DNA of 14,802 nt, taken from the NCBI GenBank assembly GCA_036940085.1, contig JALLBK010000828.1, forward strand, positions 1 to 14,802. Reading direction: 5' to 3'. Source of the DNA: Discostella pseudostelligera. Lineage: Eukaryota > Bacillariophyta > Thalassiosirophyceae > Thalassiosirales > Thalassiosiraceae. The translations under genes and the position numbers were made by a program. Of the stretch, positions 3,154 through 14,802 are shown piece after piece; position 1 is the first letter of the stretch, and each line of letters opens with the position of its first letter. The notes beneath the pieces are model-generated. The model ran no database searches, was not told the origin of the DNA, and saw only the letters and a program-made list of their open reading frames with translations.

Positions 3154-3418
3154 TCTCTCATTGTTTGTAATCTTGGAGCGGATCATTGAATTTGGGCATA
3201 ATTGCCGGGTGGGGTTGGACCCCATCTATCATGTCGAACCCATGAGTCATAGATAATTCACAGTAGTCCTCATTTTTTCGGATTGTTCAAGTAGTTTAGC
3301 TTAATTGACTTTCACCCTTCCAATTTATCAGGCGTGGAGGCATTCATCCACACCATCATTCAAAGAAAATGATGTAAGTACATGGACTAGACTTGACACG
3401 AGGCCCCATATTTATTTC
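3154..3418. other. Convergent 3' regions of the LRR and methyltransferase genes
   Basis: This 265-bp gap holds the 3' UTRs of two convergent genes. Its notable content is the SECIS-like hairpin on the minus strand (3327-3359). On the plus strand there is a minor 5-bp hairpin, GGGGT-TGG-ACCCC, around 3211-3223. I see no further gene. Confidence 0.6.
3313..3369 (-). promoter_or_regulatory. Candidate SECIS element (selenocysteine insertion hairpin)
   Basis: Read on the minus strand, the core spans 3359 to 3327. AATGA opens at 3360-3356, then T, then GGTGTGGA, the apical loop TGAATGCC, then TCCACGCC, then TGAT (3330-3327). GGTGTGGA and TCCACGCC form 8 consecutive pairs (one G-U). The flanking bases give the non-Watson-Crick quartet U.U, G.A, A.G, U.U of a kink-turn SECIS core. 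The conserved AA lies in the apical loop 11 nt after ATGA, in the usual 10-13 range. A weaker outer helix, pyrimidine-rich 3362-3369 against purine-rich 3313-3320, is separated by an asymmetric internal loop. The hairpin starts 60 nt after the TAG stop of the extended methyltransferase frame and about 240 nt after its in-frame TGA, spacing suitable for Sec insertion. The helix is at the short end for this class. Confidence 0.8.
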
Positions 3419-4825
3419 CTAACAGTCGTTCATCTTCCGTGCGGTTATCTCCGCACTCACGACATAGTCCTCGGCACCGGAGCCTGGCAACCATTGACTA
3501 ATTATCTCTCGACTCTCCTCCTTCCGATTCACACGAATACAACCAAAGCCGGCATTTTCTAAATATTGTTCAAGGGACGTCGTTTCCGGCGCCCCGGCAA
3601 CTCAGCATGCCAACGCCTCTGCTGTTTGCAAATGACTGGGGATTGTGGGCGTTTCACGTTCGGGACGCAGTACCACATCAGAGATTGCAATGCGTCCACC
3701 AGGTTTGAGTATTCGGCATATCTCTCGATAGACTTGTGCCTTGTCAGGGCTAAGATTGATGACGCAATTACTAACGACACAGTCAGCGGTATTGTCGGGG
3801 ATGGGTAGATGTTCAATCTCTCCCAAACGAAATTGGACATTGTTGTGGTACGGCATCTTCCCTTCCTCTCCATCTTTACTTCTCAACCGCTCCGAAGCAT
3901 TCATTCGAGCCTTGTATATCATCTCAGGTGTCATATCGACACCAATCACACTTCCACTGCTCCCCACCAAATCCGATGCTAAAAAACAATCTACCCCAGC
4001 ACCACATCCCAGATCCACTACCGCTTCTCCATGTTGAATATTCGCAAAGGATATGGGATTGCCGCAACCTAGACCAAGATTTCCAATAATTTGACCTTCT
4101 TCGGTTGGGGAAGTAGTGTAGCCCATAAGTTGTGAGTTGACACTGGTGCAGCAGCCTCCTCCACCTCCACTTGAAATAACACTACGCTCCCCGCCACCCC
4201 CAGTAACTCCTCCTTGGCTAGATGATAAGTTCAAGACCGTGTTGGCATAGCTCTGCTGTACTAGACGCAATATCTCATTTGGATCAGTCGGAGCATGAAT
4301 ATTCTTGGATCCATCAGGGCAGCATATTGCTGTAACAGCACTATTTCCACCAGCGCAGCAGGTGGCACCACCACCACCACCACCACCAATCTTGGCTTCT
4401 TGTACTACAAACTTTAGTGCATGTCTGATAGATAAAATAATTGAAGAGTTGGATGATGATGCTTCGTAGTTGTGCACCAGCTTGCCATTGTTGTAGATCT
4501 GATACCACGGAATTTCCTTCATTCCCAAATCTATCGCCAGATCTTCAAGGTCGTCGGACTTGGTTGTTTCAATTACATATATTGATGGACTTGTTGTATT
4601 GTTGCTGCCTCCGCTGCTGCTGGTGTTGGTGATGTCATGATGCGAATCGTTAAAGACTTCGTCGACGGCGGCAAGTATATTCTTCAACACTAATTGAGAC
4701 TTGGGCGACGATGTAATGGCAACAATTATTGATAGCGGAGAATTGGCAAGCAGTTCATGGATGGAGGAGAGAGTTGCATGGTTGCTGTCGATGAAGTGAA
4801 GGCGGTTGTCGTTGGTCGAGGGCAT
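3419..4825 (-). CDS. Arsenite methyltransferase (ArsM/AS3MT family), probable selenoprotein with N-terminal thioredoxin-like domain
   Basis: It would transfer methyl groups from S-adenosylmethionine to trivalent arsenic. The start is the ATG at 4823-4825. Residues about 30-140 look like a thioredoxin fold (IIVAITSS, then [13 protein letters not shown]) without CxxC. A Gly/Cys-rich linker follows, with CC pairs at 156-157, 168-169 and 225-226. The methyltransferase part has [10 protein letters not shown] (248-257), SAM motif [11 protein letters not shown] (271-280), GVDMTPEMI (295-303), [10 protein letters not shown] (332-341), [11 protein letters not shown] (352-362) and [12 protein letters not shown] (373-384). 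After C407 comes TGA (3602-3604), then 60 codons in the same frame (VAGAPETT ... [12 protein letters not shown] ... [14 protein letters not shown]) to TAG 3419-3421. These are the normal family C-terminus, so TGA stands at position 408 where relatives have the Cys before V-(A/S)-G-A. With the SECIS-like hairpin downstream, I read it as selenocysteine. Total length is 468 residues. C354 and U408 would correspond to the two As(III)-binding cysteines (Cys174 and Cys224 of the Cyanidioschyzon enzyme). The alternative is a nonsense mutation or base error. Confidence 0.88.
4366..4389. repeat. (ACC)n simple repeat inside the methyltransferase gene
   Basis: About eight CAC/ACC triplets encode the poly-glycine linker (residues about 147-153) between the thioredoxin-like and methyltransferase domains. 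Length variation here would keep the frame. Confidence 0.8.
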
Positions 4826-7444: not shown

Positions 7445-8057
7445 AGTACCCAGAGTGTTGAGAAGATGGTATGAATCGTTATTCTCGCATGGCGAAGAGG
7501 TTGACGGCAGATCGACACGATGTTGGATCAATCCAAAATCTCAGTGTATTTGATCGCAATTACGAATTGAAATCAAACTTCCCTGCCTCCTTGTCCTCTC
7601 CATCATCTCCTCCTCTTCACATCATCGGCAGCAGCTGTAGAATCACTCATCGCTTGATACGCTTCTAACTTGAGACTCTCCAAATATTTTGATGTAGAAA
7701 TGATATGTTGGATGAAGCGCCATGCTTTCACGGCAATCTACGGCAATTCTTTCATTGGCAATGCATTGACAGTTCGCTGCGGCAGGCGACACGAGCCGGT
7801 AGCAAGGCGCCGATGGATCTTCCCGCTATTTTCGCCTCAATTTCTTCCCGCCATTTCCCCCCCTCACATGCACCTTCGTTTTGGCTTGGACATGGCCATG
7901 TCCGACGGCATTGCTCGTCGTCTCTCATACCACCTACTATTAGATACTATCTCCATCTATCGCCGCTGTGCTGGCCCATCCCCTTCATATCAATAGAATA
8001 GAGTATTTGGTTGGTGTTGAGGAGAGGTTGGATAGAATAGACACAGATAGACACATC
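7445..8057. other. Intergenic region upstream of POLD3
   Basis: This 613-bp gap holds the metallopeptidase 3' UTR and the POLD3 promoter. Open frames here show no recognisable motifs and appear random. The visible features are pyrimidine-rich tracts around 7585-7620 and the E2F-like sites at 7819-7852. Confidence 0.55.
7819..7852. promoter_or_regulatory. Paired E2F-like sites upstream of POLD3
   Basis: CTTCCCGC (7819-7826) and CTTCCCGCC (7844-7852) each match the E2F consensus TTTSSCGC with one mismatch. They lie about 205-240 bp before the POLD3 ATG at 8058. Replication genes are classic E2F targets, which makes the sites plausible although each is short. Confidence 0.45.
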
Positions 8058-9997
8058 ATGGCCACATCCGCCACCGCCGCCTACGAGCCGCATCACCTCG
8101 ACCAAATCTTATCCTTACTCCATGATCAACGCCAATGCCTAACCTTACGCACCATCATGCTCGAATTGACAGTCACTCGATGTGTGGCACGTTCGCTTAT
8201 GAATGAGGTTGTGCGACAATGCTGCGGCAATAATGGCAATGACGAGAATTGCGGTGATGAAATGGTTGATGAGAAGAGGCGGAACAAGTATCATGTAGTT
8301 CGAATGAGAGTGTCGATGGACGAGAACAATCGCCGTCGAATGGAGCTGGTGGCAGACAGCTCTGATGGGGATGGAAAGGCGAAGGAGGTAGAGGGGGGAG
8401 GAGGAGGGAGCAGCATCTTCTCCATTTCATTGACCATGCCCGAAGATGAGGAGGACAATGCCGTCAACAACGAAGACGATGACGATGGTGTTATTGATGA
8501 CGAGGAAGACGTTGATGAAAATGGCAATCCTATCCATGGCAAGAAGAGTATCCGCACACCTGCTTCATCATCCAATCATCCGCTACTATTGGAGCAATTG
8601 GTCGCTGCCCATGAAATGGCATTGGCAACCCAACGCGATCGGGCAGTGTCGGAGAATGGCAATGGTGTCGGAGAATTATTGGATATATTTTGCGACATGA
8701 GTATCTTACCGTCACCAGAGCTATGTGGGGAGGAGGAGAACGATCAAGGAAGAAGAATGGTTCGTCGGGTGAAAAGAGGTCGGGATAGGATGCACCTTTC
8801 GTCAGCACCTACTACCACGGGCAGTTATGGCAAAAGTGGCAATTCCAAGGTTGGTTCTTCCACTTCCAAGGTGTCAGCAGCAATGCCAGCAATATCCTCC
8901 TCCTCCTCCTCGTCGGTACCTTCGAAAAAGGGTAAACCAACCACTGCCGCGGCATTCTTCGGCTCGCATACTACTACCAAGAAGAAGGAGAGTAATAGTA
9001 GTAGCAACAGCAACAAGGGCAATAGCAATGCAAAGACTGAAAGGAATAGCAAAACCAATACTGATGATGACGTTGTTGTTATGGAAAGTCCCACCGAGAA
9101 AGAAAATAAGGCCAATAAATCCAAAAAGGGTGTCAAAGCTGGGGTAGCATCAGCATCATCATCATCATCGGCGGCATCAGAAACGGCTCCACCACCTGTA
9201 GCGGCGGCGGCGGCGGCNCACCACCTGTAGCGGCGGCGGCGGCGGCGGCGGCAAAACAAAAGAAGGGCAGCGCTGACGACTTTATGGGCGATGTTGATGA
9301 AGACGATGACTTCGTCGAGGCCGAGAAGGCGCGTATGGCCCGTGTTGCCAAGGAGGTACAAGCGAACGAGGATGAGGAGGGTAGTGGTGGTGCCGCGACG
9401 AAGCGTAGCAAGGCACGAGGTGGAGGAGGGGAACGTAAGAAAAAGGCGTCGATGGCATCAACCAAGGACAAGGACGAATCTAGAGTCAAAACTGTGGCGA
9501 AAGATAAGCATGAGAAGGATGACGACGTCGACGACGATGACGAAATGATCGTGGAATACGATGATGTAATTAATGTGAAGAAGGTGAAGAAGAATGCACA
9601 GGCCGGTTCTATGGATGCATTTGCCCGAAAGAAGGAATCTCTTTCATCCGGGGGTAATGATACGACAACGACTGCGAGTACATCTAAGAAACGCAGAAAG
9701 AAAATGGTGGAACAAACGACAATTGACAAGAATGGGTACATGTGCACCGAGACTGTGACGATTTGGGAGGATGTTGACGATGAAGCTGAGGAGGAAGACC
9801 AGTGTGTCACTAAGGAGAGTAAGAAACCAACAACAGTGGCGGCGGTGGCGTCTATGAACTCAACGGGGAATAGCGTCAAGGGTCCAAATGGCAGTACCAC
9901 GTCAAGCAACAAGAATACAACCAAGAGTGGTGGCGCGGGAAGCAAGGGACCAAAGAAACAGGCTGGCCTCATGGGATTCTTCGCGAAGAAGAAGTAA
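8058..9997 (+). CDS. POLD3: DNA polymerase delta subunit 3 (POLD3/Pol32/Cdc27 type)
   Basis: This is an accessory subunit of replicative DNA polymerase delta that tethers the enzyme to PCNA in the nucleus. The start is the ATG at 8058 (context atcATGG); the open frame extends upstream without another ATG. The N-terminal part has the family's winged-helix-like segment (LTLRTIMLELTVTRCVARSL, then YHVVRMRVSMDE). A long acidic and Ser/Lys-rich disordered middle follows. Near the end, MVEQTTIDKNGYMCTETV followed by acidic residues matches the conserved POLD3 segment ahead of the PCNA motif. The C-terminus QAGLMGFFAKKK (from 9959) is a canonical PIP box (Q-x-x-L-x-x-F-F). An internal AAAFFGS and a SMDAFARKK segment may be extra PIP-like motifs. 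The frame breaks once, at the N (9218). Counting one copy of the 29-bp duplication there restores one frame of 636 residues. The promoter has E2F-like sites. Confidence 0.88.
9190..9252. repeat. Unmerged assembly overlap around an N inside POLD3
   Basis: CACCACCTGTAG plus a (GCG)n run occurs at 9190-9217, then an N (9218), then the same CACCACCTGTAG plus a longer (GCG)n run from 9219. The offset is 29 bases. The frame before (7968/8058 phase) and after (9284 phase) differ by exactly the amount that subtracting 29 bases corrects. This is best explained as two contig ends joined without merging their overlap. In the true gene, the run probably encodes one poly-alanine stretch. Confidence 0.9.
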
Positions 9998-10853: not shown

Positions 10854-12695
10854 ATGCCATCACACCACTGGCACCCTACTAATCAGCATGCACAACAATT
10901 GCAACTGAAATGTCTTGTCCTCGGTAGCGCTGGCGCTGGTAAAACGAGTTTGCTTCGCCGCTTCAATTATGGCACCTTTGAAGGCCACGACGATGAGCAA
11001 TTTACCCGTAATACGATGACAACTGCTACTAATAATTGGAGATCCGGGAGGAGAAACCCAACATCGACATTAGGTGCTGATTATTATGTTAAGAAAACTG
11101 CCAATCCACTGTTTGACAAGGAGCGTTCGGCACAACATAGTTATAGTAACAGCAGAGATGACGCCAAAAACAATACACCGTCATCCAGAGTTGCAACATC
11201 AACTATTACGGCTGCAGAATCGCATTCACAATTGTTCGTTCAATTATGGGATACTGCGGGGAAAGAAAGGCTAATGCCACAACGATATCCTGCCCAATAC
11301 GACAAGAAATCCAATTTCTATCAGTTCCTCTCGATCCGACTGTCCAAAACAAACGACAATAACAATAGCAACAACTATGAACATCGATACAATAATTGGG
11401 GATTAATTCTCAAAGGAGGAGGAACAACCAATGCAAATGATGAAACTAGTATGCATAATCATCCTGTTCATGAGCAAAGAGAAAAGTTATCGAGGCACAA
11501 TAACAACATCAACAACAATACCCAACTCAAACACGGCCGGCCCCTCCATTACCATCACCACAATAGCAAGAAACATTATTCCAACGAACCAATAGAAGAT
11601 GCCCTTTACCGGAATGTTGATGCATGTATGCTGGTATATGATTCAACGTGAGTACTCATAAGTATTGTGTTGATACCATATGCATTCTTTTCCGACTTAG
11701 AATGCATTAAATATTCAAACATTGTGATGAACAGGTCAAGCGTGTCATTCTTGCACTTGATGCAATTGCATTCTGAATGGGTACAGAGATTGAATCGATG
11801 GGAGAGAGAAGACGAGGAGATAAAAAGCAACAGTAGTACAGCTCAGATCCACACACCGGGTAGGAGGAGAAGGAAACACATCCCCTTCATTGTTGTTGCC
11901 AACAAAATTGATCTATTGGAAAAGTCAGAATTGCTTCGATCATCGAGTGTTCGACCAGAACGGCGGTCGGTGATGGGTTTTCCTGAAGGACAATCCTATA
12001 AGGGCAAGGATTTTGTTTATGAATTTGCAGTGGAAAATGCACAACCTTTGCCGAAGCATTCGTCATCCCCATCGAAGCGGCGGTCAAACAACAATGATAG
12101 ACTTACATACTCGCTGAAAGAGACCTCATGGTCAAACGATAGAATTTATCTGCGAGCACTGCAACTCACGGAGGATCAACTCCCCGCCAATAGACTCTTG
12201 ATATTGTTGTGGTGTCAACGTAATGGCATTCCCCACTTTGAGGCAAGCGCATTAGATGGAAGAGGTGTGAATGACGCAATGAATCACTTAATACTTGTAG
12301 GGGTTGAGGAGCTACAACGGCGAGAAGAAGCGGAGAAGTTAGCTGCTGCTATGGAGCATGAGAGGGTATTCGATTACGAGCATAGTGATGATACGATATC
12401 CCATGCACATTTGTTCAATATCGAGGGAACCATGTGTGTGGCGTCAAATGGTATAGATAGAGTTGGAGCCAGAGGAGAAGGCGAATGCAACAAAATTGCC
12501 CAACAGCATAATATTGTCCCCGGTGTCAGCAAAGATCATGAGGATGGCGTTGCTCCGCCTGCCAGTGTGTCCAGTGTAGATCCGTCGCAATATTACTTCT
12601 TATATCAACCAAAGCAGGATGAACCATTGGACTTGTTTGCACGTTACTCTGCAAAGAAGAAAAGCGTTTCGTCCTGCTTTTGCAAATGCTGCTGA
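10854..12695 (+). CDS. Rab7-like small GTPase with large insertions (two exons)
   Basis: This would be a membrane-anchored GTP switch for vesicle or endolysosomal traffic. Exons are 10854-11647 and 11735-12695, giving 584 residues against about 205 for a typical Rab. G1 is GSAGAGKTS (24-32). G2 is STLGADYYVK (71-80), with T72 the switch-I Thr; LGADY resembles Rab7's IGADF. G3 is WDTAGKE (132-138), G4 is NKID (321-324) and G5 is SAL in FEASALDGRGV (436-438). RLLILLWCQRNGIPHFEASA parallels the Rab7 segment WC-x-IPYFETSA. The C-terminus CFCKCC ends in two cysteines, fitting geranylgeranylation. In the catalytic domain Glu replaces the usual Gln just after AGK/AG, as WDTAGKE (K at the usual Q position), so hydrolysis may be low or different. 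The insertions are Asn/His/Ser-rich: between G1 and G2, G2 and G3, after G3, and between G4 and G5. Confidence 0.85.
11648..11734 (+). other. Intron in the Rab-like gene (87 nt)
   Basis: The donor is AAC|GTGAGT (GT at 11648-11649) and the acceptor is GAACAG|GTC (AG at 11733-11734). The join splits a Thr codon and continues VYDST into SSVSFLHLMQLHSEW, which matches the Rab segment between G3 and G4. The alternative AG at 11699-11700 would bring in a stop at once. Confidence 0.88.
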
Positions 12696-12993: not shown

Positions 12994-14016
12994 CTAACAC
13001 ACCCTTGCAGCCATCTAGCTACTGCTTCTCCCGCTCCTACGCAGTTCCTGCAAATTTTTCAACTTTGTCAAGAATTCCGCTCGCACATTTCGATGATGCG
13101 CCGGTGAGTGGTGTTTCGTAAAATAATCAGCCAGATTTGATTTACCCGGTCTCCAATAAAATCTAAATTGCGATTGCGCTTCTCTACACAACAACCAGTG
13201 CAGTCTCATATCCATCGATTTCATTCATTTGGTTTGAACTCTGTTATTTAACACTCCCTCGGCCGTCGTATTATCGGTTTGTATCGGCGTTGGTGGCTGC
13301 GGATGTCCCATTTCATGAAGTATATTTCGAATGTATGCTGCCTCTTTCGCATTTATAAATAACACCCCCAACTCTGCTTCCGCCGCGGATGCCATAACTG
13401 CTTTTATTATTTGCGCAATTGTCAATATAGCTCCATTGTTCGATGGGTAAGTGACGTTTGTGGATAAGAAAAAATGTCCACCTGCTCTGCTGCGTGCTAA
13501 TTTTTCATTCAAGTATCCCGCATCGCTATGAACAGCTAATACCATGTCGCTTTTATTGTAAGTCAACACTGCATCATCCTGCGTTGCACAATAATCTAAC
13601 AATTGCCGTGCTCGCTCCATCGTTAATTGCGTAGGCTTGGCTTGATTGGATGCTATTGCACTCAGAGCTACTAGAATTGTCGGATCGACTGCTCTCGCAT
13701 AATACAAACAAAGTTCCGGTGACCGCTTGTATAAACTTTTGTCCGGATTTATCAAGTAGGGGGGTTTCATCCTTGCTCTCCGTATACTGTGCCTTGGCTC
13801 CATATATGGGTATTGCATGTGGATGTGGGGAATTTTGTGGTTTGCTCGGCTTTGGATGTTGAAATTTCTCCAGCGCTTTTTGAATGTATCCAGGCATCGA
13901 CAAATGCACCTTTCGATTTTCATAGTCCCATTCCAATGTAAGTCCAATGTACTTTGATCCTGTCCAATCGATTGTGATTTCATAAAACTTTTCCAATGCG
14001 TTGATTAAATGGTTCG
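12994..14016 (-). pseudogene. copia pol, RNase H and C-terminal part (broken)
   Basis: The connection segment (YEITIDWTGSKYIGLTLEWD) is in one frame at about 13700-14020. It then shifts near 13702-13716 into the frame carrying RNase H, with the acidic residues expected at HSDAGY, AEAELG and QTDNTTAEG. That frame is stopped by TGA at 13225-13227 just before the conserved M-D-M-R-L-H-W segment. It continues in phase (FYWRPGKSNLADYFTKHH) to TAG 13015-13017 and a final stop at 12994-12996. The tail matches the end of many diatom copia elements. Confidence 0.85.
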
Positions 14017-14802
14017 CGTCTTTGAATTTGTGTACTTCACTCCAAAATCATCCATGACCAGTGTGAACGTTGTTGGTTTCGTCGCGTGTGTCCATAGGCC
14101 GTGTATGATTTTACTTTGCGTGTATCCGAATTCCTTCAATCGTTTCTCCAACAGTTCTTGTGCAAGAATGCCTGCTTGGGGTAAGCCATACATTCCTTTT
14201 CGTATTTCAATGTATACGTACCCGTTCTCATCCACCTTCTCTCTCAAATTGTACTCATTTATGACTTCTTCTGGGATATCATCAATGTGTACACGCGCAT
14301 ACTCGTATCTTACCATAGGTGTGTTGAGGTAAAAATTGTGTACGTCAAGTGTCAAGTATTTTGCGTTTTGTGTTGAGATGGTGCTGTTCAGATGTGTTTT
14401 GACTAACAGTAAGTCTGCTGTTGGTGTTCGAACGTCATCTGGATAGTTTACTCTGTCCCCCCCGACTGCTAATCTTGTTCGATATCTTTCCGCTTTGTTT
14501 GGTTTCTCTTCACAGACGAACTTGACGTACGTCACATCTTTAATTTGATCGCTCGGAATTTCGCGTTTGGCGACAAAGTAAATTGTATTGGTGCCTTGTA
14601 TCCGTCCTCCAATCCCGTGAGCTAGTCATCCAAATTCATTTGCTGCAGATGGACTCCAAATCTTATGTGTTTCCGGGTTCTTCATTAGATGTCGGTAAAA
14701 TATTGGTTTTCCGTTTTCGTCTAATATCGCCAGGTTTGCTAATTCCGTTGATTCTTGTTCAAATCCTTGATTGGTTCTCCTTGCTACTCTTGCATGAATT
14801 GC
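14005..14802 (-). pseudogene. copia pol, reverse transcriptase part (broken, 5' end outside the window)
   Basis: Reverse-transcriptase motifs are readable: RTRLAVGGDRVNYP, LDVHNFYLNTPM, KGMYGLPQAGILAQELL, then LVMDDFGVKY as the catalytic Asp pair. The same frame extends to the window edge (NEFG, then a TGA at 14626-14628 where relatives usually have Trp, then LAHGIGGRIQGTNT). The frame is lost again around 14017-14030, after DFGVKY. Confidence 0.88.

Follow-up and report, generated by a model that had tools for sequence, protein, structure and literature searches.

A diatom ArsM-type arsenite methyltransferase gene with a probable selenocysteine codon at an arsenic-ligand position

The gene, its in-frame TGA and the tail beyond it

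We analysed a 14,802-nucleotide stretch of DNA from the diatom Discostella pseudostelligera (assembly GCA_036940085.1, contig JALLBK010000828.1), hereafter the window, whose minus strand carries a gene of the ArsM/AS3MT methyltransferase type with an in-frame TGA. The assembly comprises 963 contigs and 23 Mb, and the window is one of these contigs. The reading frame opens with the ATG at 4825 and runs for 407 codons to TGA 3604-3602, and the same frame then continues for 60 further codons to the TAG at 3421-3419. If the TGA is translated as selenocysteine (Sec, U), the whole coding region (3419..4825) specifies a protein of 468 residues with U408. An earlier note on this DNA, made from the letters alone, had described this interrupted frame with named C-terminal motifs after the TGA, and the translation bears the description out.

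The homologue search placed 7957 of 8000 scored candidates over the threshold. The counts given here rest on the 120 listed homologues and are stated for 109 window-type rows, the window included, and for 11 listed bacterial rows. By sequence, the best matches among solved structures are ArsM and AS3MT enzymes (5evj, E 4.1e-28; 4kw7; 4fr0; range to E 3.3e-19). Pfam methyltransferase domains match the window protein, which has a class I S-adenosylmethionine (SAM) methyltransferase domain, and ArsM structures were also the top matches in a structure search with the predicted model. In an alignment with the Cyanidioschyzon enzyme CmArsM (4fr0), residue counting places C254 at Cys72, C354 at Cys174 and residue 408 at Cys224. 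All three arsenic-ligand positions are thus filled, by Cys254 in a GCGNP motif (codon at 4064..4066), by Cys354 in an SNCVINL motif (3764..3766) and by the predicted Sec408 (3602..3604), with Sec in place of Cys at the third. Each of the 109 window-type rows has Cys at the positions of both C254 and C354. In human AS3MT the matching ligands Cys156 and Cys206 bind arsenic, and Ser mutants are inactive (accessible text of PMC3877260). The earlier note's assignment to the ArsM/AS3MT family is supported by the solved sequences, by the alignment to the arsenite methyltransferase model NF008823 and by the ligand Cys; its placing of the TGA opposite CmArsM Cys224 agrees with the alignment of residue 408 to 4fr0.

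The residue adjoining the site, Cys407 (3605..3607), is Cys in 105 of the 109 window-type rows. Among the listed bacterial proteins with Cys at the site, the preceding residue is Cys in 4 of 11, and among the listed bacterial Sec loci in 1 of 26. The 468-residue protein consists of an alpha/beta N-terminal domain, a Cys-rich linker and the arsenite methyltransferase. The N-terminal domain (residues 1-145; 4391..4825) is free of Cys in the window copy, the first Cys of the protein being residue 156, and is probably thioredoxin-like: the Pfam Thioredoxin cut-off was passed at the N-terminus in three of four orthologues scanned (P0022, P0069 and P0102), with no match in P0007 and none in the window protein at E 0.1, and the model of the window protein shows N-terminal alpha/beta elements with high predicted local distance difference test (pLDDT) values. 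The linker that connects this domain to the methyltransferase carries Cys 156-157 and 168-169 (4319..4360) in a low-confidence region of the predicted structure. A further Cys-Cys pair at codons 225-226 (4148..4153) is matched by Cys in 10 and 11, respectively, of the 11 bacterial rows.

The 60-codon tail (3422..3601) reads as the C-terminus of the family. Residues 400-468 used as the sole query retrieved P0022 (E = 2.2e-20) and P0007 (E = 2.8e-18) from a database of 5.8 billion proteins, two matches among 21 candidates, and the match is therefore not due to chance. Identity in the tail is 41/60 with P0022, 40/60 with P0007 and 33/60 with P0055, compared with 101/158, 106/158 and 109/158 upstream of the TGA, so that conservation of the tail roughly equals that of the body for P0022 and P0007 and is lower for P0055. 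The alignment to the bacterial ArsM model NF008823 extends across the tail to residue 466, and in the predicted structure the tail forms the last helices and strands (415-464) of the methyltransferase fold. The earlier note had considered that conservation might drop after the TGA, with no orthologue extending past it; this is not so, because the tail is conserved in P0022, P0007 and P0055.

In 104 of the 120 listed homologues the last residue is exactly the one before the codon-408 column. This C-terminal residue is Cys in 102 of them and W in 2 (P0078 and P0083); the latter two end in ALAW in place of ALAC, so their W precedes the Sec column. Cut one residue short, these 104 proteins look like enzymes without the third ligand. 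In P0022 and P0055 a W stands at the site itself and the homologous tail continues, most likely because the gene caller used a code in which TGA is Trp. P0088 shows a frame change at the site, which, like the sequence of P0007, may reflect a frame correction or a real change (both have MMETSP-derived labels), and P0109 is a fragment. The listed bacterial rows have Cys at the site in 11 of 11. Twelve listed non-bacterial homologues carry an organism label, eleven of them from Minutocellus, Detonula, Thalassiosira, Cyclostephanos, Amphora, Cylindrotheca and Attheya and one from Alexandrium. We take the eleven to be diatoms, some shortened names having been completed. The diatom context suggested earlier fits the tree, in which the window protein nests among rows with diatom names.

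The SECIS-like hairpin and the selenocysteine machinery

A hairpin resembling a selenocysteine insertion sequence (SECIS) lies in the 3' region of the gene (3306..3380, minus strand), beginning about 40 nt 3' of the TAG. Its AUGA/AA/UGA core (3359-3328) begins 59 nt past the TAG and reads ATGA-TGGTGTGGATG-AA-TGCCTCCACGCC-TGAT, with an 8-bp helix II, a loop AA 11 nt after the UGA, an opposing UGA and a distal helix I. The folding z value is -2.8, and an equally good fold occurred in 3 of 200 shuffles. A strict pattern scan of the window and 18 stretches of its own genome on both strands (389,604 strand-bases) returned this hairpin as the single match, and in a shuffle control over the 500 nt past the TAG a strict-type match arose in 7 of 3000 cases. 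When a 106-nt stretch was compared with Rfam, SECIS_1 was the top of all families, and its match covered the whole model, lay on the correct strand and lined up with the core.

Control loci in the same genome gave mixed results. A strict-type scan at somewhat looser settings found nothing convincing at the GPX and SPS2 loci, only one weak match on the wrong SPS2 strand; an SPS2 element containing mismatches came from a separate search. A relaxed scan recovered the window element, the SPS2 element and a SelM candidate against a background of 6 matches in 360,000 strand-bases. The SelW-like and SelT-like genes gave no match, and GPX a single distant, unlikely one. The sensitivity of the scans is therefore modest, and a missing match tells little. 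At the SPS2 locus (L023:4942-6118, contig C683) a 300-nt downstream stretch is present twice in identical form, 877 nt apart, and the SPS2 SECIS candidate also occurs twice at that spacing, indicating a tandem duplication or an assembly effect.

The genome contains a tRNA-Sec (77.9 bits; a second match of 42.7 bits is under the gathering score of 47), SepSecS (327 bits) and an SPS2 with one in-frame TGA. Matches to other selenoprotein families also carry a TGA, in one of four for the GPX family, two of three for Rdx and the single match for Sep15/SelM. Judging from their TGA contexts, the Rdx and Sep15/SelM matches are presumably SelW-, SelT- and SelM-like; the SelW-like, SelT-like, SelM-like and GPX genes bearing an in-frame TGA are at L162, L163, L164 and L016. 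Because the SECIS-like hairpin, tRNA-Sec, SepSecS, SPS2, the other TGA genes, the ends of the homologues and the conserved tail all point the same way, codon 408 is very probably read as Sec. The Sec reading put forward earlier is strengthened by the SECIS-like element, the machinery and the Cys-Sec pair.

Known relatives and changes between Sec and Cys

Sec-containing SAM methyltransferases are known from algae, as the earlier note had rightly believed: a SAM-dependent methyltransferase selenoprotein has been predicted in T. pseudonana and Ostreococcus (Lobanov 2007, PMC2375036), the Ostreococcus protein being described there as homologous to a selenoprotein of bacteria, and 'MT' stands for such a protein in the abbreviations of PMC7539508. 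This prior knowledge lowers the novelty of the present gene. The Thalassiosira/Ostreococcus protein is likewise algal, Sec-bearing, SAM-dependent and found in a diatom, and probably belongs to the same family; the window protein was likened to it by description. In the accessible text of PMC2375036, however, it is not named as an arsenite enzyme and its Sec is not placed at an arsenic ligand, a link made here by alignment. On the bacterial side, an arsenite methyltransferase with UxxG is counted among known selenoproteins in available passages of PMC13188914, citing Fomenko 2007. That protein (NF008823; WP_011987699.1) is of the same enzyme family with Sec at the same UxxG position, but it depends on a bacterial Sec signal, the preceding Cys is rare among such loci, and it is separate on the tree. 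The NCBIfam families ArsM_DUF2284_UU, ArsM_AhpD_UU and MTase_UXPK_star (PMC13188914, same passages) also have an ArsM-like domain with Sec at UxxG, but are fused to other domains and hold two or three Sec in total; the window protein scores 129-134 bits against these models, the cut-offs of which are 460-575. CmArsM, CrArsM and human AS3MT share the fold and ligand positions with the window protein but have Cys at the third ligand, and the alignments to CmArsM and CrArsM start at about residue 252, leaving the N-terminal part of the window protein without an aligned counterpart there.

The accessible part of PMC7435645 lists the prokaryotic arsenite S-adenosylmethyltransferase and the eukaryotic SAM-dependent methyltransferase as distinct entries. 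With the terms used, we found no eukaryotic ArsM named as a selenoprotein in the open-access literature, nor, in the open-access literature searched, a link between the bacterial ArsM-selenoprotein and algal methyltransferase lines; the main text of PMC6627142, which covers T. pseudonana, has no word starting with 'methyl'. What is added here is the assignment, by alignment, of the family to ArsM with a putative Sec at the arsenic site, together with the near-constant Cys-Sec pair, an N-terminal domain that is probably thioredoxin-like, a Cys-type ArsM alongside and at least five changes between Sec and Cys.

The Cys-type enzyme is a second ArsM of the CmArsM/AS3MT type in the same genome (L010, contig C319, 1084-2712, minus strand), with Cys at the site (WGECLSGALYW) and a CC tail. 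Next to it, on the opposite strand, is a gene that by eye resembles the 24-kDa subunit of NADH dehydrogenase.

A DNA pattern combining an ArsM motif with TGA-GT matched at least 119 loci. Among the matches listed, an in-frame TGA precedes V-x-G/N-A/G/S in 26 of 119 and the frame stays open past it, and 93 have no in-frame TGA there. The tree was built from 87 rows: 20 of the 109 window-type rows, the 26 bacterial Sec loci, the 11 listed bacterial Cys proteins and a random choice of 30 of the 89 other loci. All window-type rows group in a single clade (100/100), whose sister group consists of two bacterial Cys proteins (99/91). The bacterial Sec rows sit apart, falling into deltaproteobacterial metagenome-assembled genomes, Bacillota, and Synergistota together with one Peptococcaceae. 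Sec and Cys changed at least five times on this tree, with 16 of the 20 window-type rows scored as Sec from the early protein end alone and P0007 scored as Sec though it has Leu. A single Sec clade is rejected by the approximately unbiased (AU) test (p-AU 0.0066), a test made after the tree had been viewed and with no inferred root. The scenario that fits best is that the diatom lineage gained a bacterial Cys gene and acquired Sec later; a bacterial origin of diatom arsM was proposed earlier (accessible text of PMC5552862). In viral contigs no relative was found by a single-sequence query or by the DNA pattern, and an alignment query found four relatives, all four with Cys at the site. We also observed ArsM frames in which an in-frame TGA precedes V-A-G-A, at L081, L103 and L130 (Gemella) and at other Bacillota loci.

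Elsewhere in the window, the plus strand carries frames of a Rab-like small GTPase with a large insert (10854-12695), ending in CFCKCC and a TGA. This terminator, pointed out in the earlier note, was confirmed, and TGA thus ends a gene here. By eye, open frames at 13225-14535 on the minus strand resemble pieces of a Copia-type retrotransposon polyprotein, and a plus-strand frame at 7968-9997, broken across frames near an N, has the ending QAGLMGFFAKKK, which resembles the PIP box of DNA polymerase delta subunit 3.

Alternative readings and biological meaning

We put at roughly 80% the probability that the window gene encodes a diatom ArsM-type arsenite S-adenosylmethyltransferase in which UGA codon 408 is decoded as Sec and replaces the third arsenic ligand. 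Several observations weigh against this reading. The match to NF008823 (arsenite methyltransferase), which models proteins of bacteria and archaea, reaches 252.1 bits (E 6.5e-75, residues 182-466) and stays under the curated cut-off of 263, for which reason we label the protein ArsM-type and do not call it a formal member. The SECIS_1 match scores 20 bits (E 0.067), short of the gathering score of 35, and SECIS was absent from the Rfam list when 1601 bases were scanned; since the SECIS candidate at SPS2 in this genome matches nothing in Rfam, the cut-off is not decisive here. The strict pattern was written after the hairpin had been spotted by eye. P0007, from Minutocellus, has Leu-Leu at the Cys-Sec positions, and that the 104 shortened homologues stop at a TGA is inferred from where the predicted proteins end. 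Finally, according to the accessible text of PMC5552862, Cys 72, 174 and 224 are conserved in all retrieved ArsM sequences, two diatom ArsMs being used, a statement at odds with homologues that end ahead of the third ligand. The literature read contained no arsenic assay of this clade.

Were the TGA an ordinary stop and the tail a relic or untranslated, the predicted ends of 104 of the 120 listed homologues would follow directly. We consider this very improbable, because the tail is conserved in distant homologues, is retrieved on its own (E 2.2e-20), lies within the family model and supplies the last modelled helices and strands, with a SECIS-like element downstream. The same recurrent stop position, in homologues from several sources including those with mmetsp or eukprot labels, leaves almost no room for a sequencing or assembly error hiding a TGC or TGT, the codon type that the Cys of all 11 bacterial rows might lead one to expect. 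Reading of the UGA as tryptophan or another standard residue would account for the W at the site in P0022 and P0055. This is extremely improbable: that W most likely stems from gene calling with TGA as Trp, TGA ends the Rab-like gene in the window, and both Sec machinery and further genes with a Sec-type TGA are present in the genome.

Two further possibilities accept that Sec is inserted. The substrate might be a metalloid other than arsenic, a compound of selenium or an organic molecule, a view to which the NF008823 score lends itself and under which the Cys-type ArsM of the genome could do the ordinary arsenic work; it appears quite unlikely, given that the other two ligand positions are invariably Cys in the window-type rows and that the structural search places ArsM structures first. 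Somewhat less unlikely is a variant of the preferred explanation in which the gene yields two products, mainly the 407-residue form, with selenium-dependent read-through acting as a switch. Decoding and termination at UGA compete in general, and the SECIS-like element is modest by Rfam score, but the short form would lack the final modelled strands and the third arsenic ligand.

If the Sec-decoded ArsM reading holds, UGA 408 would be translated by the eukaryotic route, through a 3' SECIS and tRNA-Sec, and Sec408 would stand in for the third arsenic ligand (CmArsM Cys224, human Cys206). In the Cys-type enzymes the three ligand Cys hold As(III) and reductants restore activity (accessible text of PMC3877260 and PMC4211708). 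In the window protein As(III) would be held by Cys254, Cys354 and Sec408 next to SAM, followed by methyl transfer, and the oxidised enzyme would then hold a selenenylsulfide between Sec408 and either Cys354 or the adjoining Cys407. Such a bond would be reduced faster than a disulfide, perhaps with help from the N-terminal domain. A selenolate at 408 would also exceed a thiolate in nucleophilicity, Cys407 might act as its resolving partner, and, as the earlier note suggested, ligation of the selenolate to As(III) may alter the rate or the products.

A wider proposal joins these features, and we offer it tentatively, as more doubtful than probable: the diatom ArsM may be a self-reducing arsenic enzyme in which Sec as third ligand is combined with a Cys-Sec redox pair resembling that of thioredoxin reductase, with the Cys-rich linker and with a thioredoxin-like domain fused to it. 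Several bacterial lineages and the diatoms would each have recruited Sec to this ligand on their own, and marine selenium supply would be coupled to the methylation of arsenic, a Cys-type ArsM being retained alongside. Diatoms transform arsenic at sea and many use selenium, as is generally known (see also accessible text of PMC5552862 and PMC2375036). If Sec occupies the arsenic-ligand position in the family as a whole, methylation of arsenic would hinge on selenium supply, and several switches between Sec and Cys at one ligand, together with the Cys paralogue, would provide a natural comparison of the role of selenium in metalloid methylation.
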